A stretch of DNA of 38,921 nt, from positions 1 through 38,921 of the forward strand of contig JAMCVZ010000039.1 in assembly GCA_023476565.1 (NCBI GenBank), given 5' to 3'. Positions 3,098 to 38,921 of this stretch are shown here, piece by piece. Position 1 is the stretch's first letter; each line of letters begins with the position of its first letter. A program made the position numbers and the translations under genes. Below the pieces are notes generated by a model, which was not told the origin of the DNA, did not search any database, and saw only the letters and a program-made list of their open reading frames with translations. Source of the DNA: Nitrospirota bacterium (GTDB lineage Bacteria > Nitrospirota > Thermodesulfovibrionia > Thermodesulfovibrionales > Dissulfurispiraceae).

Positions 3098-3126
3098 AGA
3101 TGTCTTTTACAGGTCTTTTCCGAGGG

Positions 3127-3147
3127 GGGGCGATAGGCCCCTTTTTT
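3127..3147 (+). terminator. Rho-independent terminator after the topB-traF-transglycosylase operon
   Basis: GGGGC and GCCCC arms around a GATAG loop, followed immediately by six T. It lies 30 bases after the transglycosylase stop. Confidence 0.75.
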
Positions 3148-3372
3148 ATACCTTCCTCACTTCTTTTCAGGAAACTTTTCTTTCCCTTTCTTTGATCCTC
3201 CCGAGTCTTATAGCGCTCTGATTTTGAGAGGGGTTATTCTGTCTTTTTCTGGCCGGAGCGACAGCGGAGAGCGGAGCGGGGACCCTACATAAGTCCCGGC
3301 GAAGCGGTGCCGGAAAAAAGACGGAAATAACCCCCTCGTGCGTACCACAGAAGGCTATTTGCGGCCTCTTTA

Positions 3373-3388
3373 TGTTTCGTACGAAACA
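3373..3388. promoter_or_regulatory. 16-bp perfect palindrome TGTTTCGTACGAAACA (operator-like)
   Basis: A perfect dyad with central CGTACG. A closely related dyad, TGTATCGTACGATACA, lies at 35243-35258 upstream of parA. Two such sites in intergenic DNA suggest operators for one dimeric regulator. The regulator is not identified. Confidence 0.5.
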
Positions 3389-3613
3389 ATATAGGAGCCG
3401 AGCAAGCGGCGGTCCAGGAGGTCGAGGAGACCGAAAAAGAACCGGAAACGACCTTAAAGGCAGTACAGGGGAAAACAAAAATGCAGGGCGAGATAAAAAG
3501 ACTGGGCTGTTTGTTTTTGTTTTCGTGGGCTATCAGCCCACTTTTTACGGATTTTGTCTTTGTTTTCCCTGGTATTTTTTCTCAATTTTTGGGATGTGGG
3601 CAACCCAGAAAAA

Positions 3614-3640
3614 TGGGCAGTTTGAAAGGCCGACTGCCCA
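3614..3640. repeat. Inverted repeat TGGGCAGT / ACTGCCCA
   Basis: Perfect 8-bp arms at 3614-3621 and 3633-3640 with an 11-base loop. The same arm sequence forms the dyad at 3854-3872. Confidence 0.6.
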
Positions 3641-3853
3641 CGTTTTGCGCAAAGCCTTATTTGGCGCGGCTTCACGTGGGACACACTATATTATCTTATT
3701 GTTTTTTTGGCTTTTTTTAAATTCGCATTGTCGCTTTCTCTCAATTTTGCCTATTTGCCCACTTTTTCACTGCCCACTGACTGCCCACGCCTCTTATATC
3801 GTGCTGCTTTGTAGTGTTTTTTTGTGGGACATGAATGGGCTGTTTTTTGTTTT

Positions 3854-3872
3854 TGGGCAGTTGAACTGCCCA
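3854..3872. repeat. Near-perfect palindrome TGGGCAGTT-G-AACTGCCCA
   Basis: Nine-base arms around a single G. It shares the TGGGCAGT arm with the inverted repeat at 3614-3640, so one protein may recognise both sites. Confidence 0.6.
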
Positions 3873-3917
3873 TTTCTTTGTAGAATGGCTTCTGTAGCCG
3901 CTTTGCGCCTTATCATA

Positions 3918-3948
3918 GTGGGCAAATCAGCGCCAGTGCTGGGTTTGC
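3918..3948 (+). repeat. 31-bp direct repeat with internal hairpin, copy 1
   Basis: Begins GTGGGCAAATCAGCGCC and ends GGGTTTGC. The GCAAA/TTTGC ends and CAGC/GCTG inner bases can pair. A diverged copy is at 4313-4343. Confidence 0.5.
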
Positions 3949-4312
3949 TGCTTCTACAGACGAAATAGCATGAAATTATCATTTTTCGTATAGCCCATAC
4001 AACGCCATTTCGCCGATTGTTCAAGGCGTTTCGTGGGATGTGGGCGCACCTATTGTCCCACATTCTCCGCAAATCATTTATACATGCAGCTTCGCGTGGG
4101 ACGACACTGGGCAAACCTTTAAATCGTGCGGCTTTGCCTATGTTGCTAAACATGCAACGACACGGAAGCCGCTACAGTATTGGCTTTAGCCAATGTCCCA
4201 CTTTGGGATATGCCAGCAAAGGCTTTATAGCAGCCGTTCCTCACATACTTTTTCCGAATTGCAAGCAAAGTGGGCTGTTTCCCTCGCAAAGCCGTGCCGT
4301 TATTGGTTTTCT

Positions 4313-4343
4313 GTGGGCAAACCCGCGCCGTTGCTGGATTTGC
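4313..4343 (+). repeat. 31-bp direct repeat with internal hairpin, copy 2
   Basis: Begins GTGGGCAAACCCGCGCC and ends GGATTTGC. It matches copy 1 at 3918-3948 at most positions and keeps the GCAAA/TTTGC pairing ends. Confidence 0.5.
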
Positions 4344-4393
4344 GTTCAATATTCACAAAAATTCGATGGAATTCTATGATTTTCAGAGCGCCC

Positions 4394-4421
4394 ATTTTGG
4401 GATATTCAATAATCCCAAAAT
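4394..4421. repeat. Perfect 10-bp inverted repeat upstream of the relaxase gene
   Basis: ATTTTGGGAT (4394-4403) and ATCCCAAAAT (4412-4421) flank an 8-base loop, followed directly by the palindrome CTTATAAG. It lies about 125 bases before the relaxase ATG. An inverted repeat beside nic is typical of oriT, so this is the strongest local candidate for relaxase or accessory-protein binding. Confidence 0.55.
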
Positions 4422-4456
4422 CTTATAAGTTAATGTTTCTTTTGCCTAAATTTGGG

Positions 4457-4489
4457 ACGATAGGTTTTTTCATTTTAAGGCGGGATACT
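4457..4489 (+). promoter_or_regulatory. Shared promoter-like element, relaxase copy
   Basis: ACGATAGGTTTTTTCAT starts at 4457 and CGGGATACT at 4481. The same two blocks, with the same 24-base offset between their starts, occur at 10415-10447 before trbC. GATACT may act as a -10 box; the -35 is poor, so an activator or alternative sigma factor is possible. Confidence 0.5.
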
Positions 4490-4547
4490 ATTAATGGGAT
4501 GCGAAATCATAGAAAGGAGCCACTTTCAATAAGTTGCGTGGGACGTT

Positions 4548-6698
4548 ATGAAAAATGTTACTAAAAGAAACACAAAGCCTTTGAACTCTCAACAGCACGG
4601 AGAGGCTGAAAAAGAAACCCCGGCGCTCAATATAAAACACGGGAAAGCGAAGCCAGAAAGAAACCGGAGAAGCGCCAAAAAATTTATGAATCTCATGCTC
4701 TCATTGTGCGGTCCGAAAGGCAGGGGCGGCGGGTCTTTCGGGCGTACTCATTTTGTAAGAAATCCCACTCAATTTTCACAACGAGTTGTCATGAAAGCCC
4801 GGGTCGTAAAAATGAATGCGAAGGGGGTCAAAAACCTCAGGGAGCACCTGGCTTATATCCAGCGCGACGGTGTGGACCAGGACGGCGGAAAGCCAAAGGC
4901 TTTTGACCATGATCACGACGAACTTCCATCAAAACATATCGCAGAGTTTGCCGACAATTGTTCAGGAGACCGGCATACTTTCCGTTTCATTCTTTCTCCG
5001 GAAAACGGAACATCTCTCAATATGAAAGAATATGTCCGGGAGGTTATGACACAGGCCGAAACAGACCTCAAGACAGAGCTGAAATGGACGGCAGTCGTCC
5101 ACTACAACACGGACAATACCCATGCCCATATCTTGATCCGCGGGAAGGACGATGCGGGCAATGATCTTGTCATATCTCCAGACTATATTTCTCACGGTTT
5201 CAGGAACCGGGCAGCCGAGATCGCAACGCAGAATTTGGGCCTCAGGACAGAGCATGAAATAAAGCAGGGGATTGCGCGTGATGCGATCAAAAACCGTCTT
5301 ACGCCTTTAGACCGGGAAATATTATGGGCATGTGACGTAAACGGCTTCTATGCGGTCCCTCCGATAACCGCCGATCCAGACCAGAATTTTAAGCGAGCAG
5401 TCCACATAAGACGTCTTCAACATTTAGAATCTTTAGGGCTCGCAGAGGAAAGGCTTAGCGGTTTTTGGCATATCTACAATGGCGCAGAAAAAGTATTGAA
5501 AGAAATGGGCGAAAGAAACGACATTATCAAGACGATGCATAAAAGAATGAAGGGCCTTGATAGAATGCCAGAGTGCATTGTTCACAGGACTGACGACCCG
5601 CATATTTCTAAGACTGAAATAAATGGCATGGTCCTTACGAAAGGCCTTGAAAACGAGCTCTACGACAGTAAGTTCATAATCGTTCAGGCAGATGATGGTA
5701 AGGCCCATTATTTTCCCATGTCCTACTTCTCCGAAAGACCTGGCTTCGAGGTTGAGGAAGGTTCCCTTGTCACTATCAAAGGCAAGGAGTACCAGCCCAC
5801 CTTTGCTTCAGACAAAAACATTGTCCGCTTTGCAACCGAGGGCTTTCCAGGGAATGATGGGAAGAGATTTGGAGGCCAGGGGATATATGACCCTGCCGCT
5901 CATCTGGAATATGTTTCAGGAAAACTGCCTGAGGGCGTGGACCCCTCCCGTTATGTAGATCAGCATATAATGCGCGTGGAAAAGTTTGTTTCTCAAAAAC
6001 TGGCGACAAGACTTGAAGATGGTACATATCGAATAGAACCAGGCACCGCACAGAAGATAGCCGAGATCGAGACTGCAGCGCAGAAAAAGGGTCCGCGACG
6101 CCACTACGAAATAGATGCCGTTTCGATAGCTCCACTGGATAGACAAATACATTCCTCCGGACCTACCTACCTGGATAAGCTCATCGCAGAAAGAGGCTAT
6201 ACAGAGGAGGCGCAGAGGGCTATTCTTACACCTGTACAGAAAAAAACCAGAGATGCGCTTTTGAGGCGAGTTGAAGAATTGAAGAAAAGAGGATTGCTAA
6301 GGATCATTCCGGGGGAGAACGGTGAACCCAATAAGTATTTATTTATAAAAGGCGCTATCGAGAAGATGGAGGAAGAATTTAAGGCGGCTCTTTATAAGAG
6401 ATTGGAATCTAAATATGGGAAACCAGTTGACCTCAAGGAAGGGGAAAGCTTCAAAGGCGCTCTCGGGGCAGTAGAAAGACATCCGGAAGGCCCTTACGCG
6501 ATAATCCATGACAAAGTGAACAATAAATTCACAGCTATCGAGATGAAGGGGGGCATGAGCAAAATGACAGGTACAGATAGACTGATAAAAATCACGAAAG
6601 ATCGCGAGAGGCGCTTTCTTGCACCTCCAAAGTACACCATGAAAGTAGATCAGCCAAAACGGATAGAGAGGAAACAAGATAGGGGGAGGGATTTATAA
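4548..6698 (+). CDS. DUF3363-type (VirD2/MOB-P-like) conjugative relaxase
   Basis: The relaxase nicks oriT, stays covalently bound to the 5' end and pilots the strand into the recipient. After a basic, disordered N-terminus the conserved run begins with VVMKARVVKMNAKG. HLAYIQRDG supplies the likely catalytic Tyr103, and HYNTDNTHAHILIRG the metal-binding histidines (His185, His192, His194). TFRFILSPENG is another family block. Residues from about 245 to the end correspond to the DUF3363 part. At 716 aa it is of usual size. The ATG at 4548 has no close Shine-Dalgarno; AAAGGAG at 4514-4520 is about 27 bases away, so another start is possible. Its last base overlaps the start of traG. Confidence 0.88.
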   Translation: MKNVTKRNTKPLNSQQHGEAEKETPALNIKHGKAKPERNRRSAKKFMNLMLSLCGPKGRGGGSFGRTHFVRNPTQFSQRVVMKARVVKMNAKGVKNLREHLAYIQRDGVDQDGGKPKAFDHDHDELPSKHIAEFADNCSGDRHTFRFILSPENGTSLNMKEYVREVMTQAETDLKTELKWTAVVHYNTDNTHAHILIRGKDDAGNDLVISPDYISHGFRNRAAEIATQNLGLRTEHEIKQGIARDAIKNRLTPLDREILWACDVNGFYAVPPITADPDQNFKRAVHIRRLQHLESLGLAEERLSGFWHIYNGAEKVLKEMGERNDIIKTMHKRMKGLDRMPECIVHRTDDPHISKTEINGMVLTKGLENELYDSKFIIVQADDGKAHYFPMSYFSERPGFEVEEGSLVTIKGKEYQPTFASDKNIVRFATEGFPGNDGKRFGGQGIYDPAAHLEYVSGKLPEGVDPSRYVDQHIMRVEKFVSQKLATRLEDGTYRIEPGTAQKIAEIETAAQKKGPRRHYEIDAVSIAPLDRQIHSSGPTYLDKLIAERGYTEEAQRAILTPVQKKTRDALLRRVEELKKRGLLRIIPGENGEPNKYLFIKGAIEKMEEEFKAALYKRLESKYGKPVDLKEGESFKGALGAVERHPEGPYAIIHDKVNNKFTAIEMKGGMSKMTGTDRLIKITKDRERRFLAPPKYTMKVDQPKRIERKQDRGRDL

Positions 6699-8620: not shown

Positions 8621-9106
8621 ATGAGAAATGATTTACACATACGCTTGGGAACTGATCTAAGGAAACAGCTTGAAGCAATGAGACTGAAGAGAAAAGGCAT
8701 AACGCTCAATGCTCTTTGCACTTCCATTATTACTGACTACATAAACGGTAATGATCAATCAAAGAGAGATGCTCTAATTTTAAAGGGTATAGAGCGTTTA
8801 GAGCGCCGTATGATCAGTTTGGATAAAAAGAATGAAATTCTTGCTGAGATGATCGCAGTTTATGTCCGCGTATTCCTTACTAATGTTCCGCCTGTAGAGG
8901 AGGGTCAGCGTACACTTGCGATTTCCTTAGGCAATACCCGTTTCGATGCATTCATAAAACAGGTTTCCAAAAAATTCAATTACGGCGGCTCTTTCTTTGC
9001 TCAAATGCTGGATCAGAATTTCAAAGCTGACGATTTTAAAATTCCAGAACAGGAAGATTTGAGTGATCCTACAGAAAATACAGGAGACAATGGAAAACTC
9101 AAATGA
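8621..9106 (+). CDS. Ribbon-helix-helix (CopG-like) protein between traG and trbB
   Basis: The N-terminal 45 residues fit a CopG-type beta-helix-helix domain (DLHIRLGTDLRKQLEAM then a second helix LNALCTSIITDYI). A CopG-like gene at this position, between traG and trbB, is characteristic of Tn4371-type Trb clusters. The remainder is helical and unassigned. It has an AGGAG site before ATG, and its stop overlaps the trbB ATG (ATGA). It may regulate transfer genes or act as a relaxosome accessory protein. Confidence 0.7.
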   Translation: MRNDLHIRLGTDLRKQLEAMRLKRKGITLNALCTSIITDYINGNDQSKRDALILKGIERLERRMISLDKKNEILAEMIAVYVRVFLTNVPPVEEGQRTLAISLGNTRFDAFIKQVSKKFNYGGSFFAQMLDQNFKADDFKIPEQEDLSDPTENTGDNGKLK

Positions 9107-18750: not shown

Positions 18751-19104
18751 GTGACATATGAAACATCCAGGGCATTAAAGCTCGTACAGGTCCGAATTCC
18801 TGTATCGCTCTACGCGCGGATCGTAAGACAGTCCCAAAGCTCCGGACGCAGTATGGAGGACCTGTACCAGGATGCGGTAAGGGCCCTTCTACAGGCTTAC
18901 AGCGAGAAAAAAAATGCTTTTATCTTCAGGGCAAGCTACAAAGGCCAAAAGGCATACAATCTTAATGTACGGCTACCTGGGAATCTTTACGAACTTGTAG
19001 AGAAGGCAACTCGCAAAGCGGAGGTTTCAAAAACAAGCCTCGTGTATACGGCTTTATATGAGGCTTTTGATACACCGAAGAAAGGAGGGGAGACAAATGC
19101 CTAA
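18751..19104 (+). CDS. Tandem ribbon-helix-helix DNA-binding protein (TraY-like layout)
   Basis: Not a close match to a named family, but the chain contains two consecutive beta-helix-helix units: VQVRIPVSLYARIVRQ...YQDAVRALLQAY (about residues 12-51) and YNLNVRLPGNLYELVEK...VYTALYEAFD (about 70-108). A single-chain double RHH is the layout of F-plasmid TraY, an oriT-binding accessory protein. GTG start after AAGGAGG. Possible roles are relaxosome accessory factor or repressor of the adjacent operons. Confidence 0.6.
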   Translation: MTYETSRALKLVQVRIPVSLYARIVRQSQSSGRSMEDLYQDAVRALLQAYSEKKNAFIFRASYKGQKAYNLNVRLPGNLYELVEKATRKAEVSKTSLVYTALYEAFDTPKKGGETNA

Positions 19105-19370: not shown

Positions 19371-19937
19371 ATGGAGTCAACAATGCTGAAAATAAGGGAA
19401 CAAAAGGGGTTTACTCTGGTTGAGATTGTCGTGATTATAGCTTTGCTCGCTATAGTTGCTCTTATCGTGTTTCAAATTTTTGGCAACCCTTTTAAGCAAT
19501 CATCGACTGACGGCAATACTACACAGATATTTGAGCAGTTCCGCGCGGTTGAGCAGGGCGCATCGCAATACTACGCGCTCAACATGAAAGAAACCCCCGA
19601 CATTGCTACTCTTACCACGGCGGGGATATTGAAGACATTGCCGGCGCCGACTACATCAGCTCGAGAGCCGACCAATACTTACACATCCGGATACACAATA
19701 GTCCTCAGTAATCAGTACCCATCCGGGACGACAATTACCGGCTTCGGAGGCCCGGCAACCGATACCGTCGCGTACCTGGAGGGCGTAACGCAAGATATTT
19801 GCTCACAAGTAAATTATCGCTTTGCTCGCGGTGTGCAGGGAGCAACCCCGCCGGCTGCGATAGACTATACCAAATCATTACAGTGTTACGGCACAGCACC
19901 CAACTTTGTTGTCCTCATGCCGGTCTACGTGAATTAA
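19371..19937 (+). CDS. pilS: Type IV prepilin, probable major pilin (PilS-like)
   Basis: Subunit of a type IV pilus. A 13-residue leader ending EQKG is followed by FTLVEIVVII, the class III prepilin signal with Glu at mature position 5, and a hydrophobic alpha-1 helix. The globular part ends with two cysteines (QDICSQ and SLQCYG) that could form a D-region disulphide. Length 188 aa. It begins 22 bases after the DUF2274-like gene with AAGGAG before ATG, so the pilus genes continue the trb transcription unit. Confidence 0.85.
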   Translation: MESTMLKIREQKGFTLVEIVVIIALLAIVALIVFQIFGNPFKQSSTDGNTTQIFEQFRAVEQGASQYYALNMKETPDIATLTTAGILKTLPAPTTSAREPTNTYTSGYTIVLSNQYPSGTTITGFGGPATDTVAYLEGVTQDICSQVNYRFARGVQGATPPAAIDYTKSLQCYGTAPNFVVLMPVYVN

Positions 19938-19949
19938 CAGGGAGGAGCT

Positions 19950-20471
19950 ATGCAGCGGCAGAAAGGGTTTTCGCTCGTTGAACTTATCATTGCACTAGCG
20001 CTTTTAAGTACTATCGCGGCTATCGTATACAACGTTGTAAATCCTAATCTATGGCAGGTTACGGGCCTCTCAGCCCGTATACGATCCGATTTCATGCAGA
20101 TGGAAATGGGCGTAACCAACTACTATAGCGCTGCGGGCTCATACCCGGCCAGCTTGTCGGACAATACGTTTGTGCCGCAATATCTAACCCCCCCATCTGT
20201 AGCGTCAACTTTTGACGCTACTTATGGGACAGGCGGCTATCTGCTCGCGCAGCAGACGGGCCAAGCATCTCCCAACAACGGGTATTATCTTGCCTGCCGC
20301 GTAACCGTAACGGGCACCCAGGACCCCAATTACAAAGCTATCAAGCAAGTAGCGGCGAATCTATCTGTGCAAAAATTCTTTTACAACACTTCTGTTCCTG
20401 CGGTTTCCAACATGGGGGACCCTGCGGGAAACGCCACCGTATATTTAACATACTGGCTGACGAGGAACTAA
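19950..20471 (+). CDS. Second type IV prepilin-like protein
   Basis: A short six-residue leader (MQRQKG) is followed by FSLVELIIALALLSTIAAIV, a canonical prepilin N-terminus with Glu5. 173 aa. GGAGGAGCT precedes the ATG, 12 bases after the first prepilin. Having two full-length pilins in tandem suggests one major and one minor pilin; the sequence cannot say which is which. Confidence 0.82.
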   Translation: MQRQKGFSLVELIIALALLSTIAAIVYNVVNPNLWQVTGLSARIRSDFMQMEMGVTNYYSAAGSYPASLSDNTFVPQYLTPPSVASTFDATYGTGGYLLAQQTGQASPNNGYYLACRVTVTGTQDPNYKAIKQVAANLSVQKFFYNTSVPAVSNMGDPAGNATVYLTYWLTRN

Positions 20472-20473
20472 GA

Positions 20474-22309
20474 ATGACCATGCAAAGAAAAAAACAACAT
20501 ATAGGCGAATATCTTATCAGAAAGAAGATTATAACCAAGGAGCAGCTTGAAATAGCACTTCTTGAGCAGCACAGCCAGCCTCGAAACAAAAAAGAGAAAA
20601 CCGGCGAGATTTTTGTAAGATGGGGCTTTGCCTCATACAAACAAATCCTCGAGGCACTTATCGAGATCGAACCGGCTGCACTTATCGACGAAGACGGATA
20701 CGGCCACTCGATACCTAATCACGTTCTCATTAACACGCAAAGTGTTGTAATCGGCGGCGATGGTAAGCACATATATATAGGCACCTTAAATACACACCCG
20801 CATGATGTGGTAAGGACGTTACAGGAACACGTCAAGGACCAGCAAGTACAGCTCGCTCCGCACGGTGTTTCCCCCGACCAAATCAGAGATAAGCTTGAAC
20901 GCCTCAAAAAAGATGAAACCGTACATTTTAATAACACGACCGATGGAGGCGACCCGGATATACCCGGAATAGTCCATTCTATAATGTCCCGAGGCCTCCA
21001 GGACGGCGCAAGTGATATCCATATTATCAACACAGGCCATTCTATACATATCAGATATAGGACAGATGGAGATCTGCATACTAAACTTGTTTTTCCAATC
21101 ACAATTGAACAGCAACTATACGCCAGGTTCAAAGACCTCTGTCATGTGGATATGAGCCAGAAGAGAAAAGCCCAGGACGGCAGTTTTTCACAAAAATACC
21201 GTGGCCGCATTGTCGATTTCCGTGTCTCGATAATACCAATGATTAATTCCACTGAAAAAATCTGTATAAGAATACTCGACAAGGAAAAGATATTTATACC
21301 AATAGAGGAGCTAGGCATTACACAAGTCAGTGAATGGCTTGCCCTTACGAATATGGCGAACGGGATTATTCTAGTTTGTGGTCCTACCGGGAGCGGCAAA
21401 ACAACTACTCTCTATTCAACCGTCAACCGCATGAATAAACTAGGGAAGGCCATTTTTACGATTGAGGACCCCGTTGAATACGAAGTGCCATTTATTTTCC
21501 AGACACAGGTAAATGCGAGGGATGAGATTACTTTTGCAAGTTACCTTAAATATGTTTTACGCCAGGACCCGGACATCATCATTAGTGGCGAGATCCGCGA
21601 TGAAGAAAGCTGTGATAACGCACTTGCCGCCGCAGATACGGGGCATCTTGTCTATGCTACCTTGCACACAAACGATGCGATTAGCACACTACAAAGACTT
21701 AAGGATTTTGATATAGACTGGGGGAAACTTGTGTTTGCTTTGCGAGGCATTATGGTACAAAAGCTAGTTAAAAAGATTCACCTTGATTGTAAACGAAAGG
21801 GTTGTGCAGCATGTAATAATACCGGCTTTAAAGGCAGAACCTTAATTACAGAATTTGTTCGATTCAACGGCCCTGCAGATATTCATGCTTTACGGGAACA
21901 AAAGTTGAATTACCATACATTTCAAGCCGACGAAGTATTAAAGCTTTCACGACGTATCACATCAGGAGACGAGATTATAAGGGTTGCTGGCCGCTGTCAT
22001 AAGGGTGAGTGGTGTAGTGATTGTCTAACCCCCGCGCTTTGTCAACATTTAGCAGCGGATGGGAATAATTCTCTCCCGCAATCTGGTAGCGCGCCTGTCC
22101 CTGTGCCTGTATCTGTCCAGGCACAGGAGGCCGCGAATGAGCCTATTATACTCTCACCTGATAAGGATACCGATACCGCAAAAGATGTGTCGCAAGGTGA
22201 CGCAAAGAACGACACATCCACGGATAAAGCTACAACTGCGAAAGTTAATGATAACCCAGTCACTTCATCCCCATGGAAAGGCACCTTTACTGAAGGAGAC
22301 TACATTTAA
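20474..22309 (+). CDS. pilQ: Type IV pilus assembly ATPase (PilQ/PilB/GspE family)
   Basis: Powers pilus extension. The N-terminus (IGEYLIRKKIITKEQLEIAL) is a MshEN/GspE-N-like domain, followed by the GspE core: Walker A GPTGSGKTTTLYST (Lys309), Asp box FTIEDPVEYE, Walker B DPDIIISGEIRDEESC and His box GHLVYATLHTND. Cysteines at 439, 444 and 447 form the small zinc loop of the family. The last 110 residues are low-complexity and unconserved. Length 611 aa. Stop overlaps the next ATG. Confidence 0.9.
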   Translation: MTMQRKKQHIGEYLIRKKIITKEQLEIALLEQHSQPRNKKEKTGEIFVRWGFASYKQILEALIEIEPAALIDEDGYGHSIPNHVLINTQSVVIGGDGKHIYIGTLNTHPHDVVRTLQEHVKDQQVQLAPHGVSPDQIRDKLERLKKDETVHFNNTTDGGDPDIPGIVHSIMSRGLQDGASDIHIINTGHSIHIRYRTDGDLHTKLVFPITIEQQLYARFKDLCHVDMSQKRKAQDGSFSQKYRGRIVDFRVSIIPMINSTEKICIRILDKEKIFIPIEELGITQVSEWLALTNMANGIILVCGPTGSGKTTTLYSTVNRMNKLGKAIFTIEDPVEYEVPFIFQTQVNARDEITFASYLKYVLRQDPDIIISGEIRDEESCDNALAAADTGHLVYATLHTNDAISTLQRLKDFDIDWGKLVFALRGIMVQKLVKKIHLDCKRKGCAACNNTGFKGRTLITEFVRFNGPADIHALREQKLNYHTFQADEVLKLSRRITSGDEIIRVAGRCHKGEWCSDCLTPALCQHLAADGNNSLPQSGSAPVPVPVSVQAQEAANEPIILSPDKDTDTAKDVSQGDAKNDTSTDKATTAKVNDNPVTSSPWKGTFTEGDYI

Positions 22310-23481
22310 TGCGTATAGTTCACTATTACGACGCGGACGGCAAACGACACGAATCCGACTTCATCGGGACCCCTGACGAAATCCGAAGCAGGCTGGATGC
22401 GCAAGGCGCTACAGTTATTCGTATAACGGCGCCTTCTGTATGGCGCGTTAAGAAAGTGAATGATAAAGAACTATCGCAGGTCTTAGCTGCACTTGCTGAC
22501 CTTTTAGCATCAGGCATGTCCTTTTCCAAAGCGCTTGAGACCATTATAGCCAGCTTTGATAAATCATCCCCCCTGAAAGGCATTTTCTCAACTATACATC
22601 ACTCTATTGTCAACGACGGTAAGACTTTCTCGCAGGCCTTTTCCGGCTATCAGCATGTTTTTGACAAAACAATTATCGCAATGATGCAGGCAGGCGAGGA
22701 ATCCGGCAGCTTCGCGCAGAGCATAACGGCTGCATCTCAGTACATAGAGACCCTGAACGCAAGTAAAGCTGAAGTAAGGAAAAGTCTGACTGAGCCTGTA
22801 ATAACCCTCTTAATCGGCTGCGTCGTTTTGATGTTCAACACATGGTTTACTATGCCGAGAATCATGAACAGTCCTCTGATGCGGGCGGTAAACAATGGCG
22901 GCGATACAAATATCTTTATCCGCATTCTTGACGCGGTTGCTTTTTCCTTGCCCTTTATTTTTGCTTTTGCCGGTATCCTCTATATCGCAATGCGCTATGC
23001 CAAACTATCAAAAAGCGACGCGGTGGAGCGCTACTTGCTAAAAATTCCCATGCTCCGCGAACTCACCTTTTACCGGGGTTTCTATGTTGCTTTCTATAGC
23101 CTTACGAATCTATTGACCACCGGCCTTCACCTATCGGATGCTCTCAGGATCGTGAGAGACGCTACAGATATGGGCATTGTGCAAAAAGATATGCAAAGGG
23201 CCTATGATGCCGTAAAAAAAGGCAAACACTTTTCCAGTGGCCTGCATAACATCAGCCCCATCGAACGGGCAATGCTTGAAATAGCGAAAGACGAGGAAGC
23301 GATAAAAAAGAATCTTGAGAGGGTGTATAAGCGCTTCTTTGACCAATATATAAGAAAAGTTAGGTCCCTCGCGCCAAAAACACAGGTGATCGTATATGCC
23401 TCTATTATTACGCTGATCCTCTTGATGGTGCTTGGCTTATTTATTCCCTACGGGAAAGTTCTAGGAGGTATACATGCCTGA
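22309..23481 (+). CDS. pilR: Type IV pilus inner-membrane platform protein (PilR/GspF family)
   Basis: Polytopic platform on which the assembly ATPase acts. Two T2SSF repeats are visible: LAALADLLASGMSFSKALET in the first half and FYSLTNLLTTGLHLSDALRI in the second, each followed by hydrophobic helices (about residues 165-185, 205-225 and 362-382). Length 390 aa. Overlaps the ATPase gene by one base and the next gene by eight. Confidence 0.88.
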   Translation: MRIVHYYDADGKRHESDFIGTPDEIRSRLDAQGATVIRITAPSVWRVKKVNDKELSQVLAALADLLASGMSFSKALETIIASFDKSSPLKGIFSTIHHSIVNDGKTFSQAFSGYQHVFDKTIIAMMQAGEESGSFAQSITAASQYIETLNASKAEVRKSLTEPVITLLIGCVVLMFNTWFTMPRIMNSPLMRAVNNGGDTNIFIRILDAVAFSLPFIFAFAGILYIAMRYAKLSKSDAVERYLLKIPMLRELTFYRGFYVAFYSLTNLLTTGLHLSDALRIVRDATDMGIVQKDMQRAYDAVKKGKHFSSGLHNISPIERAMLEIAKDEEAIKKNLERVYKRFFDQYIRKVRSLAPKTQVIVYASIITLILLMVLGLFIPYGKVLGGIHA

Positions 23482-24514
23482 AAATGAACCCACGTTCAAA
23501 AGCGACTCTTACGATGAGAAAAACAGCGACTTAAAAGAAACTGCCCCCCAAGCCGCCGAGCTTAAAGACCTGGGGGATGTGCTTATGGCAGACGAGCAGA
23601 CGGAGCCGCTTGAATCCTCGCGCGGGGACCGGGCTCCAGATCAAACTACCAGGAAAGGATTGCTCACCGCTTTTAAACAGCGCTTTTCGCAGATGGAGAG
23701 GCCGCGTAAATTCAGCTTCTCAAAGAAACAGCCTGCAGAAAACGAATCCTTGCACTGGGAAGAGCGTTTTGTTATCGCAACTGTAACCATCCAGGACAAG
23801 AAGGATATTGAGGGCTTCATCCTCAATAAAGCCCTCAAGGTCCTTGACGACCCGGATTTTTATTACGGATATATTCTCACCGGCAATTCGCTGTCTATGG
23901 TAGCTGTTAAAAGCGCAAAGCATATTGTCGGCGGGCTTTCCATCTTTGCCCCTGCTTTTTTGACAGAAGGCAAGTTCTTCTGGTACGAAGATGATTCTAA
24001 AAGTTACCACTTCATCACCAGCAAAGAAGGAATTATAAAGCATGAATTGGGCTATCAGCCCCGCGAAGAATATACACCACTATCCGCCGACGCTGAAATT
24101 CTCGCGGGCGTCTCAATACCTAAGTCTCTTCGGTTCAGGTGGTCGCTGAGCAGAAAGGAGACCAATCTGACAGCTTCCCTCGTGCTTGTAATGGCCGTTG
24201 CAGTGATAATGCTTGGAATATCTCTTTATGACTTCGACAAGGGCAGAAGAGAGCAGTTTCGTCAGGCCCATATGGTCAAAAAGCCCAATTTCACGCGGGG
24301 GCTCCCAAACGTCTTCGGCCCCACATGGACCGTTGCAAACAAGATCCAGGGGAAAGGCATTATCCATTTAATCAGCATAAATGACGGCACTAAGCGGGAG
24401 GTCACTTTTAATATCAAATTCCCGAATCCCGTAGACACCCAGGGCTTTATAGCTCAAAATCCCACGGCACAAGTGCATAACGACATGGTGGTATACACCA
24501 TGCCGATGCAATAA
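23474..24514 (+). CDS. Type IV pilus inner-membrane accessory protein, PilO-position
   Basis: Sequence family not recognised. 346 aa with a charged, disordered first 100 residues, a soluble cytoplasmic domain to about residue 220, one membrane helix (NLTASLVLVMAVAVIMLGIS, about residues 232-251) and a periplasmic C-terminus. This bitopic layout and the place between pilR and the secretin match the alignment subcomplex (PilL/PilO/PilM-like) of type IVb pili. Overlaps pilR by eight bases. Confidence 0.55.
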   Translation: MPENEPTFKSDSYDEKNSDLKETAPQAAELKDLGDVLMADEQTEPLESSRGDRAPDQTTRKGLLTAFKQRFSQMERPRKFSFSKKQPAENESLHWEERFVIATVTIQDKKDIEGFILNKALKVLDDPDFYYGYILTGNSLSMVAVKSAKHIVGGLSIFAPAFLTEGKFFWYEDDSKSYHFITSKEGIIKHELGYQPREEYTPLSADAEILAGVSIPKSLRFRWSLSRKETNLTASLVLVMAVAVIMLGISLYDFDKGRREQFRQAHMVKKPNFTRGLPNVFGPTWTVANKIQGKGIIHLISINDGTKREVTFNIKFPNPVDTQGFIAQNPTAQVHNDMVVYTMPMQ

Positions 24515-24524
24515 AGGAGGTCGA

Positions 24525-24962
24525 ATGTCAAAAGATTTTAAAACTATTGCGATCCCCGCGCTCATGATTATCTTCACGCTGTTGATAACCGTGATGGCGG
24601 TAAAGATCAAAAAAGACGCCGCCGCTTCCTGGAAAGACGTAGTAAGCAGCGAAGTTAAGGCCTCCCTGCAAAAACAGTCAACGCCGAGCTATCAGGACAT
24701 GGCGGGTTTCCAGCACCTACTTGAAGCCATAGCGAAAAGCAACAACTTACCCGTAAAGATAACGATTGATGCAAATAAGGTGATTATAAACGCAGACAAC
24801 ACCATTCTGCAGCGCGATGCCTTTCTTGAGAATTCTACCGGGATTTATCAGTTCTTGAATACTATAGCCGCGCTGCCATACCTAATGCAGTATACCTATG
24901 TGCAAATAGGCGAGGGCGCGAGTAGTGGATTCGATATCGCTATCCAGGTAAATGGCATTTAA
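24525..24962 (+). CDS. Small bitopic protein of the pilus operon
   Basis: 145 aa: a short cytoplasmic tip, one membrane helix (IAIPALMIIFTLLITVMAV) and a periplasmic domain of about 110 residues with alternating helix and strand, compatible with a PilO/GspM-type ferredoxin-like fold. AAGGAGGTCG lies before ATG. Likely a partner of the preceding protein. Family not identified. Confidence 0.5.
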   Translation: MSKDFKTIAIPALMIIFTLLITVMAVKIKKDAAASWKDVVSSEVKASLQKQSTPSYQDMAGFQHLLEAIAKSNNLPVKITIDANKVIINADNTILQRDAFLENSTGIYQFLNTIAALPYLMQYTYVQIGEGASSGFDIAIQVNGI

Positions 24963-24972
24963 GGAACCGACC

Positions 24973-26079
24973 ATGAACTTAAAATCACTACACAGAAAAC
25001 AAAAAGGCTTTATCAATATTCTTCTTGTTTCTGTGATCGCCATTGTCCCCTTGCTTGTCTATACGACCTTGCAGATCATCAGCACTTCTCAATCCGCGAG
25101 CTTCTTTTTCAAGCGAAACATGACAAAGCAGGGCATGTATGTAGTAAAAAACCTGCTTACATCAACCGCCGTCGATACAGACAACGACGGCAACCCGGAA
25201 CTGCTTAAAGAAGGGGCTGGGAACACAATACCGCTTTCAATCGTCGCTCAGGGAGTAGACGAGTGGGGGCATGCGCTGAAATATTACACTTGGGATTTAG
25301 GCTCAGCAAACGCCAACCCGCTTTATTCGCAGAATACTACAGCGCCGCCCAACTCCACCATGATAGGACGGATAATAAGCGCCGGGCCAGACGGCGCATT
25401 CCAAACCAATGACACCAATACGACTTGTCAGGGCGACGACATATGCATCGACATATATAAAAGCGATGTGCAGGGGGCTCAATCTTCATCAGCGATCCCA
25501 GGCGAGATAAGAGCATTTTCCGGAGCCGTAGCGCCTGCAGGCTGGCTTGCCTGCAATGGCGCTACAGTACTGCGGGCGACATACCCATCACTTGCAGCGG
25601 CATGTATTGGAGGCGCTTGCGGCTCCGGCGACGGCGTAACAACTTTTACGCTTCCTGACGGCAGGGGTAGGGCTCTGATAGGAGCTGGGCAAGGGCCTGG
25701 CCTCGCCAACAGGGTTATAGGCCAGACGATCGGGGAAGAATCTCATCTGTTATCGATTGCGGAAATGCCATCTCATAGCCACGGAGTAAACGACCCGGGG
25801 CACGGCCACGGAGTAAACGACCCGGGGCATACGCATATTTTGGGTGACGGCGGATGGGGTATTTTGGGAGCAAATAACATTGGAGCAAACCAAACAGTCC
25901 TGGGCCGGTTATCAGAAGGAGCCGGATATTCCTTCTATACAACTTACAACGGTTATTCTTATACCGGTATCTCCATACAAGGGGCGTACACTAACATCTC
26001 CATACAAAACAATGGCGGCGGCTCGGCGCATAACGTAATGCAGCCGTCATTAGTGGTTAACTGGATTATTAAGTATTAA
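24973..26079 (+). CDS. pilV: PilV-like minor pilin / tip adhesin with phage tail-collar domain
   Basis: Probable pilus-tip adhesin that recognises recipient cells. The ATG at 24973 (AAGGAACC before it) gives 368 aa. The N-terminus KQKG-FINILLVSVIAIVP has a G/F prepilin cleavage site and hydrophobic helix but lacks Glu at position 5. A middle pilin-like part runs to about residue 175. From IPGEIRAFSGAVAPAGWLAC on there is a phage tail-collar domain (FTLPDGRGRALIGAG, EEXHLLSIAEMPSHSHG-type block with S at X). Two tandem nine-residue units HGVNDPGHG/HGVNDPGHT follow, carrying HxH pairs, then a Gly/Tyr/Asn-rich fibre-like end closing with VMQPSLVVNWIIKY. PilV tips of R64-type pili determine recipient specificity. 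Confidence 0.8.
   Translation: MNLKSLHRKQKGFINILLVSVIAIVPLLVYTTLQIISTSQSASFFFKRNMTKQGMYVVKNLLTSTAVDTDNDGNPELLKEGAGNTIPLSIVAQGVDEWGHALKYYTWDLGSANANPLYSQNTTAPPNSTMIGRIISAGPDGAFQTNDTNTTCQGDDICIDIYKSDVQGAQSSSAIPGEIRAFSGAVAPAGWLACNGATVLRATYPSLAAACIGGACGSGDGVTTFTLPDGRGRALIGAGQGPGLANRVIGQTIGEESHLLSIAEMPSHSHGVNDPGHGHGVNDPGHTHILGDGGWGILGANNIGANQTVLGRLSEGAGYSFYTTYNGYSYTGISIQGAYTNISIQNNGGGSAHNVMQPSLVVNWIIKY
25778..25829 (+). repeat. 27-bp tandem duplication inside the adhesin gene
   Basis: Two identical 25-base copies at 25778-25802 and 25805-25829, offset by 27 bp, encode the repeated HGVNDPGH unit. Nucleotide identity points to a recent slippage or duplication that changes the number of HxH units. 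Confidence 0.85.
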
Positions 26080-26125
26080 TGAGAAATATTTTGAGTAACG
26101 GCCTATAACATAAAAAGGAGTCAAT

Positions 26126-27061
26126 ATGTCACCTAAAAATTTGTTCAGGTTCGGGTTTTATCTTACCATCGTTTTAAGCATTCAACTTTCAGTACTTTCG
26201 GTATTTGCCGCAGAGAGTCCTTTTGTTGCGGCGCGGGCACCTAAAAAAGAAAAGCAAATACAAAGGCCCGGAGAAGGGCCAGGCGCTCCAGGAGCCCAGA
26301 AAATGCCTCAGGGAGCCGCCGATCCGGTTTATGTACCTGCACCGCCTGGCCTGGGCCAGAAAGGGGTGCCAAAAGACGATAAAGATAGGTGGTCTGTATC
26401 CGGCATTGTGAATGACGATGTTATTCTTGTGGACCATGAGATGGATGATCGTCTGCTCCACATCCCGGACGGCTCAATACTTGATAATGGATGCGTTATC
26501 AAGTATCCGAAAATCCTTTGCGGCGCCGAGGCTAAAAGAATAATTGCAGACCGCTATGGCAAAAAAGATATATCAAGCCGGGTTGCCGAGCTTGCCAAGG
26601 AAAAGGGACTTCTGACTACTGAAAACAACCGGCTCAAAAAAAAAGTAGCGGAATTCGAGGAAAGATTAAAAGACCTGCCGAGTCTCCAGAAAGCAGCAAA
26701 GGAGCTGGAGATAATGAAAGTGGAGACTAAGCCCCTGGACGGCCTGAAAGCCGATATCCGGGCTCTTAAAACAGAGCGCCTTGAACTTACCCAGGATCTA
26801 GGCGTCCTGGCTCACCATATGCAGAAAATGAAAGCAGGAGAGTATTACAAGACGCCCGAAGTCGGGCCGTTTAATGTCGTCGCAACTCCTCAGAGTATGT
26901 ACGTCTTTTTGTACCCCGATCAAAGGCCGAAGGCTGACAAATATTTTAACAGCACGATAAAAAGGGCGTATCAGGATGAATCATTGCTTCTCTATGTCCT
27001 GGACAAAAAACAGATATCAACAACAGCGGATATGCCGGAAAATAAGGAGACAACAAAATGA
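26126..27061 (+). CDS. Exported coiled-coil protein of the pilus operon (PilP-like position)
   Basis: 311 aa. Signal peptide ending near VFAA, a Pro/Gly/Lys-rich linker, a small beta domain (SVSGIVNDDVILVDHEMDDR ... CVIKYPKILCGAE, two cysteines), a coiled coil at about residues 155-240, and a mixed C-terminal domain. Secretins of type IVb pili need a periplasmic partner and this gene is coupled to the secretin gene by an ATGA overlap, so a PilP-like or secretin-adaptor role is likely. Family not recognised from sequence alone. Confidence 0.5.
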   Translation: MSPKNLFRFGFYLTIVLSIQLSVLSVFAAESPFVAARAPKKEKQIQRPGEGPGAPGAQKMPQGAADPVYVPAPPGLGQKGVPKDDKDRWSVSGIVNDDVILVDHEMDDRLLHIPDGSILDNGCVIKYPKILCGAEAKRIIADRYGKKDISSRVAELAKEKGLLTTENNRLKKKVAEFEERLKDLPSLQKAAKELEIMKVETKPLDGLKADIRALKTERLELTQDLGVLAHHMQKMKAGEYYKTPEVGPFNVVATPQSMYVFLYPDQRPKADKYFNSTIKRAYQDESLLLYVLDKKQISTTADMPENKETTK

Positions 27062-28587
27062 GAAAAAAGCAGTTCTTTTTACTTATAGCCGCAGTATTTT
27101 TACTTATCGTAGGATGCGCGCCGGCTATAAAGCCCAATGACCAGGCAGATACACAAAAGCAGATTATAGAGGAACAGGAAAAACTTGCCGCAGAGCCATC
27201 AATAGAACGTATTCCCGTTCCCTCAAAGGCCTTTACACTTGATGAAACAACGATACCAAAGGAGCTTGACAAACAGATGTCAGTATCGTTTAATCGGGCA
27301 ACTTTGCGTACCATTCTACGCGCTGTTGCTGCCGAGTGGGGCGGCAGTTACATCATTGAAAACGAGGCTCAGGATTCCCGGTCTGGAGGCGAAAAGGAGG
27401 TTATCAAGTACACGGACACTCCTACGGGCGGAGGCGGGCCTTCAGCGCTGTATAAGGAAAGCCTTAAAAGGACGTTAAGCCTCGAATTCAAAGGCTCCTT
27501 GAAAGACCTTATGGAGCTTCTTTCACAACACACCGGCTATTTTTTGAATTACAAGAATAATGCCCTTATCGTCAGTGAAAAGCATACCTTCAGTTTTCAG
27601 GTCCCTTCCTATAAAGACCTTTTGAAAGAGATAAGCGACAACTTATCGAAAATGGGAGCAAGGGAAATCGGATATGATGAGATAACAAGCCGCATCACCT
27701 ACACAACCGATTACCAGGGCCAGCAACGGATAAGGGCGTTCCTCAACGATTTGCGCGGCAATATGTCAATGATTGCGCTGAAAATCGTTATCCTTGATTT
27801 GTCATTTACAGGCAACCAGAATAAAGGCGTTGATTGGACAAAATTTCTTGCGGCATATGGACGCCAGAAAGTCGGTGCTTTTGGCTTAAATGCTTCTTCC
27901 ACTACAGGGACCACCACGACGGTCACGACAACTAGCACCACTACAGGAACATCTTCATCAACGTTCAAAAGCGGCGTTGGTATCGTGGGAAACGCTACCG
28001 GCATAAATCTGTTTCTTGAGAGCAGCCGGTTTTCCATTTCCCAGTTTTTCAGCTTTATTGAGAGCTACGGAAAAGTTGATATAGTTCAAAACATAGGAGT
28101 CGAAACATTAAGCGGCAAGAAGGGGAAAATAAAGTCTCTTACAAAAACGCCCTATATAGACCAAGTAGGGGTTGCAGCACTCAGCACAACAGCGGCCAGC
28201 GCGCAGAACACAGCAACATCAAAATTTGCCGATTCCGGCGTGACAATGGAAATATGGCCCTACTATTCCCGCGAACAGGGAACCGTCACGGTGTCCCTCG
28301 ATGCCGCTGTACTGGGTGTTACCCGGTTTATCAAGCTCGATGCCGGAAACCTTGGAACTTTTTCACAGCCGGAAACAACAGAAAAGAGCGTATCCCTTAC
28401 GCTCAGGTTAGCGCCCTCTCAGACGGCCATTATCGGCGGGCTCTTCTTTGACAAGAAAACTACGAATTCTGTAGGAATGCCGGGTGATACCTATTTAACA
28501 AAGTCTTATGCCGGCACACAGGACAAGGAAGAATTGATACTTATTGTAAAGCCGAAGGTGTATGAGTTTGTACCCTCAGAAATATAA
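27058..28587 (+). CDS. pilN: PilN-type lipoprotein secretin
   Basis: Outer-membrane ring through which the type IV pilus passes. Lipobox LLIVGCAP places the lipidated Cys at about residue 20. N-domains are followed by a Thr/Ser-rich loop near residues 280-303 and the secretin core, ending with SQTAIIGGLFFDKKT ... KEELILIVKPKVYEF, the typical last secretin block. 509 aa, the usual size for PilN of thin pili. ATGA overlap with the preceding gene. Confidence 0.87.
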   Translation: MRKKQFFLLIAAVFLLIVGCAPAIKPNDQADTQKQIIEEQEKLAAEPSIERIPVPSKAFTLDETTIPKELDKQMSVSFNRATLRTILRAVAAEWGGSYIIENEAQDSRSGGEKEVIKYTDTPTGGGGPSALYKESLKRTLSLEFKGSLKDLMELLSQHTGYFLNYKNNALIVSEKHTFSFQVPSYKDLLKEISDNLSKMGAREIGYDEITSRITYTTDYQGQQRIRAFLNDLRGNMSMIALKIVILDLSFTGNQNKGVDWTKFLAAYGRQKVGAFGLNASSTTGTTTTVTTTSTTTGTSSSTFKSGVGIVGNATGINLFLESSRFSISQFFSFIESYGKVDIVQNIGVETLSGKKGKIKSLTKTPYIDQVGVAALSTTAASAQNTATSKFADSGVTMEIWPYYSREQGTVTVSLDAAVLGVTRFIKLDAGNLGTFSQPETTEKSVSLTLRLAPSQTAIIGGLFFDKKTTNSVGMPGDTYLTKSYAGTQDKEELILIVKPKVYEFVPSEI

Positions 28588-32959: not shown

Positions 32960-33190
32960 ATGAGCACCGCAAGAGCTTTGAAGCCTACAGAAACCGTAAA
33001 AAGAGATATGCGTGAGGCAGTAAGGCAGTCAATAGCAACGATGCGTCTTGAGGGCTTCGTATTCACTCCTGAAGAGCTTGAAGAGTCCGAGTTGATTGCG
33101 AGTGGAGAGCTGACCACAGAAGAAGCGCGTAATCGAAGGCTCCGGCAGCTTGAACAGCTAAGGAAAGAGCGCCCGGAGCTTTTCGTATAG
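32960..33190 (+). CDS. vbhA: VbhA-like antitoxin of a Fic toxin
   Basis: Small protein that blocks the ATP site of its Fic partner. SIATMRLEGF contains the inhibitory (S/T)xxxE(G/N) motif with Thr27, Glu31 and Gly32. Length 76 aa and position directly before fic are as in class I Fic modules (VbhA/VbhT). AAAGGAGATTAACAA precedes the ATG. Confidence 0.88.
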   Translation: MSTARALKPTETVKRDMREAVRQSIATMRLEGFVFTPEELEESELIASGELTTEEARNRRLRQLEQLRKERPELFV

Positions 33191-33199
33191 GCAGGGCTC

Positions 33200-34159
33200 T
33201 TGGGCGCTGATCCTTACGTCTATCCAGGTACTGACGTTCTAAAAAACAAGCTCGGCATTCAAGACAAAAAGCTGCTTGAGGCAAACGAGCGTTATTTTAC
33301 CCACTACCGAAGTATAGAAATAAACGACAATCCCATCAAAGGCAAATTCGACTTCAACCACCTTAAAGAGATACACCGTCATATCTTCCAGGACATTTAC
33401 GAATGGGCCGGAAAGTCCCGTACGGTCGATATTGCGAAGTCGCATACCTTTTGCCTGTCAAAGTATATTGACGTTAATGCAGAAAAGATATTTTCGGGTT
33501 TAAAAAAAGATAATTACTTGCGCGGACTTGAGGCCGAGGCTTTTGCGGAAAAGGCCGGTTATTATCTCGGGGAAATAAATGCCCTTCACCCTTTCCGTGA
33601 GGGGAACGGACGTGCACAGCGCGCATTTATGTGTGCGCTTGCCCGTAAGGCGGGCTATAAACTTGACTGGGAAAGGGTTACTCCAGAGAAGATGATAGAT
33701 GCGTCCGTCAAGAGCTTTGGAGCTGATTACGACGAGATGAAAAAAGTTATCCTTTCCGTGATGGCACCTTTAAGTGCTCCTGAGAAACGAATAACTGTTC
33801 AACTGGAGATCAACCGCATAGAGGCAATTCATAATGTCGGGAAGAGGCCCCCTTTTCTACCAGGCCACATTAAAGACCCCGACCCGGTGCGCGAGTATAG
33901 GAATCAGGCAAAAGAGATTCTAAAAAATAGCCGGGACTGGCCCGGACCGGATGCAGACATAGAAATAACGAAGAAAATGATTTTGCAAGGATACAGCAAA
34001 GAAAGAATCTCAAGAGCTCTTAAGGCTGCAAGCCCCGAGCTTTCGGGAAAAGCCTCCAACCTGGACGCTCAATACATAGGAAAAACCTTAGAGAAGGCGC
34101 TACAGGCCCCTGAACTCCAAAAGACGCTCCGCTCTTTTAATCGCGGCCTGTCTCGTTGA
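33200..34159 (+). CDS. fic: Fic-domain AMP-transferase toxin (VbhT-like)
   Basis: Fic enzymes transfer AMP from ATP onto target proteins; VbhT-type toxins modify gyrase and topoisomerase IV. IHRHIFQDIYEWAGKSRTV is the N-terminal Fic block; LHPFREGNGRAQR is the active site with catalytic His130. The TTG start lies nine bases after the antitoxin stop. Residues after about 190 form a helical C-terminus of about 130 residues; I see no clear BID secretion domain, but cannot exclude a diverged one. 319 aa, apparently intact. Confidence 0.9.
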   Translation: MGADPYVYPGTDVLKNKLGIQDKKLLEANERYFTHYRSIEINDNPIKGKFDFNHLKEIHRHIFQDIYEWAGKSRTVDIAKSHTFCLSKYIDVNAEKIFSGLKKDNYLRGLEAEAFAEKAGYYLGEINALHPFREGNGRAQRAFMCALARKAGYKLDWERVTPEKMIDASVKSFGADYDEMKKVILSVMAPLSAPEKRITVQLEINRIEAIHNVGKRPPFLPGHIKDPDPVREYRNQAKEILKNSRDWPGPDADIEITKKMILQGYSKERISRALKAASPELSGKASNLDAQYIGKTLEKALQAPELQKTLRSFNRGLSR

Positions 34160-34833: not shown

Positions 34834-34942
34834 TATGTCACCAAAAATAGCGAGACCTCAAGAGTTAGGAGGAAAAACCGTGAAGGTGGAAACTGGGTAC
34901 TGTTTATACTCTTATTTTAAGAGTTTTATAATCTTATTTTAA
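34834..34942 (+). CDS. Short reading frame, possibly a truncated gene
   Basis: 35 codons from ATG 34834 with AAAAAGGAGAAAAAAAT before it: MSPKIARPQELGGKTVKVE and a hydrophobic tail formed by the AT-rich operator DNA. Strong ribosome site but no family; probably the remaining start of a gene whose body was replaced by the operator segment. Confidence 0.35.
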
Positions 34943-34950
34943 CTGTTTAA
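34911..34950. promoter_or_regulatory. 11-bp phased operator cluster 1 (CTTATTTTAA)
   Basis: CTTATTTTAA at 34911-34920 and 34933-34942, 22 bases apart, with CTGTTTAA next to the second. Lies just before the SprT-like gene. Same motif family as at 35269-35333, 36018-36071 and 37274-37293. Confidence 0.6.
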
Positions 34951-34963
34951 AAGGATTATTATA

Positions 34964-35227
34964 ATGCCAACTAAAAAACCGACCAGCGAGCAGTTCGAGG
35001 CATACCAGGGGCTGTACGATTATTTCAATGGAACGCTCTTCAATAACGAGCTTCCCGCGATCATCCTGAACTTTTCCCGTCATTCCGGGGCATGCGGTTT
35101 TTTCGCCCCTAATCGGTGGACGAAAGTCAAATACACCTGCCCGGGGTGCTCACTTAATGTATGGGGGAAGCCAGGACTCCGGATTAAATGCGTAGACTGT
35201 GACAAGGACCTGGAGGACGGCGAATAG
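34964..35227 (+). CDS. SprT-like protein lacking its catalytic segment
   Basis: SprT/Spartan-type proteins are zinc metalloproteases. The first half (YDYFNGTLFNNELPAIIL ... ACGFFAPNRW) is the SprT N-terminus, and the second (YTCPGCSLNVWGKPGLRIKC...CDKD) is its C-terminal zinc ribbon. The part between them, which should contain the HExxH motif, is missing with the frame kept, leaving 87 aa. It cannot be a protease; it may be a relic or a small zinc-binding protein. The ATG follows AAAAGGATTATTATA. Confidence 0.7.
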   Translation: MPTKKPTSEQFEAYQGLYDYFNGTLFNNELPAIILNFSRHSGACGFFAPNRWTKVKYTCPGCSLNVWGKPGLRIKCVDCDKDLEDGE

Positions 35228-35241
35228 CCGCCCTCCCCTTT

Positions 35242-35259
35242 CTGTATCGTACGATACAG
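35242..35259. promoter_or_regulatory. 18-bp perfect palindrome CTGTATCGTACGATACAG
   Basis: Perfect dyad upstream of parA, related to TGTTTCGTACGAAACA at 3373-3388. Probable operator of a dimeric regulator. Confidence 0.5.
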
Positions 35260-35268
35260 TTTTATAAT

Positions 35269-35333
35269 GTTATTTTAACCTTGACAATTTTTTTTTATAA
35301 GCGTATTTTAATCTTACTTTAAGCTTATTAAAA
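35269..35333. promoter_or_regulatory. 11-bp phased operators overlapping the parA promoter (cluster 2)
   Basis: Motif-like decamers start at 35269 (GTTATTTTAA), 35302 (CGTATTTTAA), 35313 (CTTACTTTAA) and 35324 (CTTATTAAAA): offsets 33, 11 and 11. A promoter with TTGACA at 35281-35286, a 17-base spacer and TATTTT at 35304-35309 is overlapped by them, so binding should repress parA. Confidence 0.65.
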
Positions 35334-35359
35334 AAGTACGGCCACCAGGAGGAAGGCGG

Positions 35360-36016: not shown

Positions 36017-36017
36017 G

Positions 36018-36071
36018 CTTATTTTACTTTTTTAGTAAGATTATTTTAATCTTACCGTAAGCGTTTTAAGG
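36018..36071. promoter_or_regulatory. 11-bp phased operators between parA and the RHH gene (cluster 3)
   Basis: CTTATTTTAC (36018), a degenerate unit (36029), ATTATTTTAA (36040), CTTACCGTAA (36051) and CGTTTTAAGG (36062) follow each other at exactly 11 bases. Likely a centromere-like or autoregulatory site for the RHH protein. Confidence 0.6.
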
Positions 36072-36083
36072 GAGGCTATTAAA

Positions 36084-38775: not shown

Positions 38776-38797
38776 CAAATTACCTTGAAAAAACAAA

Positions 38798-38885: not shown

Positions 38886-38921
38886 ATCGCGAGGTAAGCA
38901 AGTAATAATATTATCAAATTT

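Follow-up and report, generated by a model that had tools for sequence, protein, structure and literature searches.

The gap upstream of the relaxase gene, in a 38,921-nucleotide stretch of a Nitrospirota genome (the window), appears with a probability of about 0.7 to be the oriT of an ICE-type element whose relaxase is of the RlxS/DUF3363 (MOBP) type, in which the sites of a long repeat array most likely bind a dimeric accessory or repressor protein. That the gap holds an oriT is well supported by its sequence, because it combines a conserved nick core at 3486-3499 with synteny with other RlxS-type elements. The preliminary description had proposed the region as an oriT candidate on the basis of its repeats. 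The location stands, by way of this synteny and of a core that the description had not named. We read the region as an oriT/operator array, an expanded variant of the known RlxS-type oriT. The predicted oriT is a new member of a kind already known; its expanded array is unusual.

The window covers the end of an ICE-like element, with a tyrosine integrase next to tRNA-Ser. Trb/VirB T4SS genes, TraG, and a DUF3363 relaxase are also present. The genes around the gap are sequentially an S26 peptidase, a VirB1-like (SLT) transglycosylase, the gap itself, the relaxase, TraG, a CopG-like gene, and trbB. This order matches that of Xanthomonas and Bradyrhizobium plasmids, where the SLT transglycosylase lies upstream of the gap and the DUF3363 relaxase downstream. 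The relaxase scores 153.8 bits against DUF3363 (PF11843), above the gathering cut-off of 28.4, and 363 bits against the curated RlxS model NF041267, below the cut-off of 850. It is a divergent RlxS relative outside the narrow NF041267 model. Residues Y103, H185, H192, and H194 are conserved in a 10-row alignment. Aligned identity to nine relatives is 27-33%, and identity in the best segments is at most 38% for the 80 genome loci kept. An exact-peptide scan with the single relaxase protein found no relatives in genome contigs or viral contigs; relatives were found instead by an alignment-based scan, which yielded these 80 genome loci and one locus in viral contigs. Within the phylum, relaxase relatives occur in 3 of 395 genomes, the own genome counted.

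Upstream of the relaxase, seven of nine plasmid relatives and 68 of 80 chromosomal relatives (RlxS/DUF3363, MOBP) carry GGCAAGAYAAAAG or a closely similar sequence. The motif GGCAAGAYNAAA was first spotted by eye in seven of the nine plasmid gaps, and these sequences supplied a search pattern for the 80 genome loci. The criterion for this oriT family is the core GGCARGAYNAAA upstream of, and on the same strand as, the relaxase gene. The core occurs once in each of the 68 loci, without exception on the strand of the relaxase gene, and precedes the first aligned residue by 125-416 bp. The pattern finds no core in the other 12 loci, two of which have too little upstream DNA. By a matrix with a cut-off of 13, chosen after the scores were seen, the core is present in 75 of 78 genome loci with enough upstream DNA and in all nine plasmid loci. 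The two other relatives in the phylum sample, L003 and L004, have no core by the matrix; their gaps measure 390 bp and almost nothing, respectively. The estimated distance from core to relaxase start is 107-191 bp in 75 relatives. Many of the relatives examined (such as L020, L025, L041, L084, and L096) also carry a second block about 35 bp past the core. It reads TTGTCTGCAC and continues in several with TGGGGGTGGCGCGGCAC; this block is absent from the window. No printed nick sequence for RlxS-type relaxases was found in searches of open papers, including passages of PMC11963761, PMC2789088, and PMC8627217.

In the window, GGCGAGATAAAA at 3487-3498 fits the family search pattern, upstream of the relaxase gene and on its strand. 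With a matrix built from 22 distinct genome-locus sequences, the window left out, 3479-3502 is the top site among all window positions on both strands, scoring 20.4 (next site, 13.2). The best scores among 500 shuffles of the gap and 30 shuffles of the whole window are 15.0 and 18.3, respectively. At one position that is otherwise nearly invariant, the window core has G where the family core has A (usual GGCAAGA). It also lies farther from the relaxase start than in the RlxS-type relatives, at 1062 bp. A second genome copy of GGGCGAGATAAAA is located on contig C55 inside an ABC-transporter-like ORF, and was taken as a chance occurrence.

Nicking is predicted between 3488 and 3489 of the minus strand, at 5'-TATCTCG↓CCC (the arrow marks the nick). 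An inverted repeat with 13-nt arms, 3497-3509/3534-3546, abuts the core, and an equally good one arises in 2 of 2000 shuffles. On the cut strand it lies on the 5' side of the predicted nick, as in RP4-type MOBP systems. A separate perfect 11-bp inverted repeat, 3471-3524, encloses the core and has wider partner arms at 3464-3479/3559-3574. We infer a course of transfer in which relaxase cleavage of the minus strand at 5'-TTTTTATCTCG↓CCCTGC would leave the enzyme attached to the 5' end. The cut strand would be led out leftwards, so that the recipient would take up the signal-peptidase side at the start and the relaxase/T4SS genes at the end. Copies of TGGGC, the core word of the abutting inverted repeat, continue for 1.04 kb as far as the relaxase ATG and would most likely bind a dimeric accessory or repressor protein, serving both relaxosome assembly and shut-down of the relaxase promoter.

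Table 1. Coordinates of the predicted oriT, its repeats, and associated genes in the window
Feature	Position	Strand	Remarks
Perfect 11-bp inverted repeat GAAAACAAAAA/TTTTTGTTTTC around nick core	3471..3524		folds with z -2.0 (+), -2.4 (-)
Predicted nick core GGGCGAGATAAAAA	3486..3499	+	relatives-only matrix; family core upstream of relaxase in 68/80
Nic-proximal arm AAAGACTGGGCTG of predicted oriT inverted repeat	3497..3509	+	11/13 complementary to 3534-3546; contains first TGGG site
Array of 34 TGGG(C/A) half-sites, both orientations	3503..4542		from nick core to relaxase start
Palindrome GTGGGCTATCAGCCCAC, then T5	3525..3541
Distal arm CAGCCCACTTTTT of predicted oriT inverted repeat	3534..3546	-
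TGGGCAGT dyad 1	3614..3640
Three direct GTGGGCA copies	3756..3788	-	15 and 11 bp apart
TGGGCAGT dyad 2	3854..3872
31-bp repeat, copy 1	3918..3948
GTGGGATGTGGG/CCCACA inverted repeat	4029..4072
31-bp repeat, copy 2	4313..4343		84% identical to copy 1
Sigma-70-like promoter TTCACA-17-TATGAT	4352..4380	+	10 of 12, weak
Perfect 10-bp inverted repeat ATTTTGGGAT/ATCCCAAAAT, possible operator	4394..4421		just downstream of promoter-like -10
Last GTGGGAC	4538..4544	+	3 bp before relaxase ATG
RlxS-like MOBP relaxase with DUF3363	4548..6698	+	Pfam DUF3363 8.8e-45; NF041267 3e-108, below cut-off
CopG/RHH-like protein between traG and trbB, candidate binder	8621..9106	+	relatives in 147 plasmid records; L012 synteny
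RHH/Arc-like protein, second candidate binder	18751..19104	+	RHH_1 just below cut-off; PHROG Arc-like 8.5e-8

The predicted cut site resembles that of RP4 (IncP). The RP4 oligonucleotide TATCCTG↓CCC, with the strict MOBP nick hexamer ATCCTG given in the consulted part of PMC3772185, is resembled by the complement of the family core, TATCTTG↓CCC, and by the window sequence. The strict hexamer is not kept in the window, which has ATCTCG, two bases different. The RP4 oriT also shares with the window TATC..G↓CCC on the cut strand and an inverted repeat on its 5' side. To our knowledge, it has no long repeat array. A parallel in layout is offered by RA3 (IncU), for which PMC4175270 describes a nick site, several repeats, and the autoregulated promoter of the relaxase operon within one intergenic region, oriT-mobC. 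By the same account, that region spans 417 bp with a single operator, OM, close to the promoter; the window has half-sites by the dozen and lacks a neighbouring mobC gene. RA3 MobC, as presented there, is a precedent for one protein acting as both relaxosome part and autorepressor (PMC4175270), and in pCF10 an RHH factor is reported to bend oriT and recruit the relaxase (PMC6514445).

The array comprises 22 TGGG(C/A) sites on the plus strand and 12 on the minus strand. The density of TGGG half-sites is 32.5 per kb in the array and 4.6 per kb elsewhere in the window (the latter taken as expected rate gives a Poisson P of ~6e-18, the motif having been picked after the data were seen). No second TGGG cluster of this density exists anywhere in the window, and 3098-3500 contains no TGGG(C/A) site. 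The whole interval 3148-4547 had been called repeat-dense; array sites are present from 3503 on and absent from the left 350 bp (3148-3500). Perfect inverted repeats with arms of at least 7 and loops of at most 20 number six in the region, versus 1.3 in shuffles. GTGGGCA occurs seven times in the region, which accounts for all seven copies in the window (219 in the 2.67-Mb assembly). This top 7-mer count falls within the range of a null that took the largest count of any 7-mer with three or more letters in 1000 first-order shuffles of the region itself (mean 4.1, maximum 9). Since that null reached 9, the enrichment is clear for the TGGG word relative to its surroundings, but not as that of just some word in a T-rich stretch. 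Phasing of the 34 sites at 10.5 bp is not convincing (R = 0.29). The array has no homologue for testing selection, and BLASTN of 3440-4560 against plasmids gave no match.

The individual repeats named in the preliminary description are all in place, and the unit they share is the array's TGGG followed by C or A, in either orientation. Both TGGGCAGT dyads are present, as are the paired 31-bp repeats at 3918 and 4313; the 10-bp inverted repeat at 4394-4421 is indeed perfect (arms 4394-4403/4412-4421), and the GTGGGAC/GTCCCAC motifs, described as many, number six in the region, of seven in the window. The pattern TGGGCAGTN{0,30}ACTGCCCA has only two matches in the 2.67-Mb assembly, which are the two dyads. 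Outside its own genome the dyad is near chance and was rejected as a wider motif, because 8 of 395 genomes matched versus 4 with a reversed control pattern. The seven dyad loci of other genomes carry no TGGG array. A cluster of three GTGGGCA copies on contig C30 was set aside, TGGG density there being ordinary. MraZ-type repeats, in which TGGGN recurs as a 10-bp repeat, were likewise rejected; the array spacings do not fit such a repeat and a literature search found no support. Sigma-70-like promoter matches number three in the sequence versus 2.0 in shuffles. A Shine-Dalgarno-like AAAGGAG lies at 4513-4519, 28 nt before the relaxase ATG, and the usual ribosome-binding position of the relaxase is occupied by a GTGGGAC site.

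Repetition of the nic-proximal arm is a habit of the family. Within 150 bp downstream, 39 of 52 distinct relatives repeat a 7-mer of the arm in direct orientation (shuffles: mean 11.9, maximum 20) and 27 of 52 in inverted orientation (mean 12.5, maximum 22). CGGCAC is the commonest core-adjacent word in relatives; 71 of 75 have two to four copies of it, typically three, no more than 200 bp from the core. There are exceptions to the habit: L012 and L096 each have 0 shared 6-mers. In a swap control, the relatives' own arms score 395 and swapped arms a mean of 323 and a maximum of 377, a weak control because CGGCAC is common to most relatives. The window shares its gene order, same-strand core, and repeated arm with the RlxS-type oriT of ICEMlSymR7A, Tn4371-like ICEs, and Xanthomonas and Bradyrhizobium MOBP plasmids. 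It differs from the RlxS-type relatives in a spacer of about 1.06 kb rather than 107-191 bp, and in the arm word, which is TGGGC with 18 further copies (34 TGGG in all) rather than CGGCAC with usually three. The 18 copies compare with 1.6 expected. Among the 5-letter words of the window arm, only TGGGC is strongly repeated in the array; the longer TGGGCTG recurs three times. It is plausible that the repeats bind relaxosome proteins, and this reading gains support from the family-wide habit of repeating the nic-proximal arm. These data do not separate such a role from that of an operator at the relaxase promoter.

RHH-type proteins had been described as encoded nearby. Candidates do exist in the element, but at distances of 4 kb (8621-9106), 14 kb (18751-19104), and 31 kb (36084-36347). 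The CopG/RHH-like gene occupies the same place, between traG and trbB, in the related plasmid L012. The RHH/Arc-like protein is rare in plasmids, with one plasmid record. The third protein is more likely a partition protein than an array binder, because the ParA/RHH pair to which it belongs (35360-36347) is homologous to a ParA/small-protein pair on plasmid pATS2 from Athalassotoga (48% and 42% identity), and because the par genes lie among their own repeats. These AT-rich repeats (CTTATTTTAA-like), at 11-bp multiples in 34900-36082, flank the ParA gene and its RHH-like partner, and together they probably form a partition system with its own centromere on the ICE-like element. A structure model of the 36084 RHH protein is too poor for use (mean pLDDT 69.6, pTM 0.28).

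Other functions of the array have to be weighed against the proposed one. The oriT might extend only over about 3464-3575, with 3590-4545 serving as a regulatory leader whose repressor operators control the relaxase/traG operon and take no part in DNA processing. Such a division is quite possible, given that relatives manage with 107-191 bp between core and start, that 3 bp separate the last array site from the relaxase ATG, and that the dyad at 4394-4421 comes after a promoter-like match. However, the repeated word is that of the nic-abutting arm, the sites run continuously from the core, and 34 sites are many for a single promoter. It may also be that multiplication of the nic-proximal arm created the array of roughly 1 kb. 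The relaxosome would then be, instead of a compact 100-200-bp complex, a long nucleoprotein tract reaching from nic to the start codon of the relaxase gene, and it would couple repressor titration to transfer readiness. We regard this as unlikely. If true, transfer would be switched on by excision or replication of the element, through titration of the binder.

It is very unlikely that the array is a replication origin or a partition centromere next to oriT. Its site density is iteron-like and the element does encode ParA with an RHH partner, yet no replication initiator was recognized among the window proteins searched, a subset of the ORFs. The pATS2-like pair lies among its own repeats, which would indirectly, at the level of sequence, place the par site there and not in the array, and the pATS2 par gap is itself poor in the word (6 TGGG in 1.1 kb). 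Less probable still is that the array encodes a structured non-coding RNA or derives from a decayed gene. The 150-nt windows of the array do fold with mean z of -1.25 (+) and -1.44 (-), versus -0.10 and -0.51 in controls, but an excess on both strands is expected of palindromic DNA sites, no Rfam match was obtained, and eight ORFs of the gap have no notable Pfam match.

Many ICEs and plasmids are transferred by RlxS/DUF3363 relaxases. For this family, the conserved core and its repeated nic-proximal arms provide a direct, testable nick prediction, and the lineage-specific recognition word beside the core may set oriT specificity. The expanded array of the window offers an extreme case for asking what role nic-proximal repeats play.

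The window contains several further features. A VbhA-like antitoxin lies beside a Fic-domain protein at 32960-34159, likely a toxin-antitoxin pair. A type II/IV-pilus-like cassette at 19371-28587, composed of prepilin-like proteins, a T2SSE ATPase, T2SSF, and a secretin, adjoins the trb genes. It includes a minor-pilin-like protein with a phage tail collar domain (24952-26079) and is reminiscent of the R64 thin pilus and PilV. Finally, the last 126 bases of the window (38796-38921) are identical to the first 126 of contig C70 (L109, 1-126), and this overlap starts at the 3' end of tRNA-Ser, next to the integrase. The overlap points to a branch in the assembly graph at the attachment site, which may stem from cells that have lost the element by excision.
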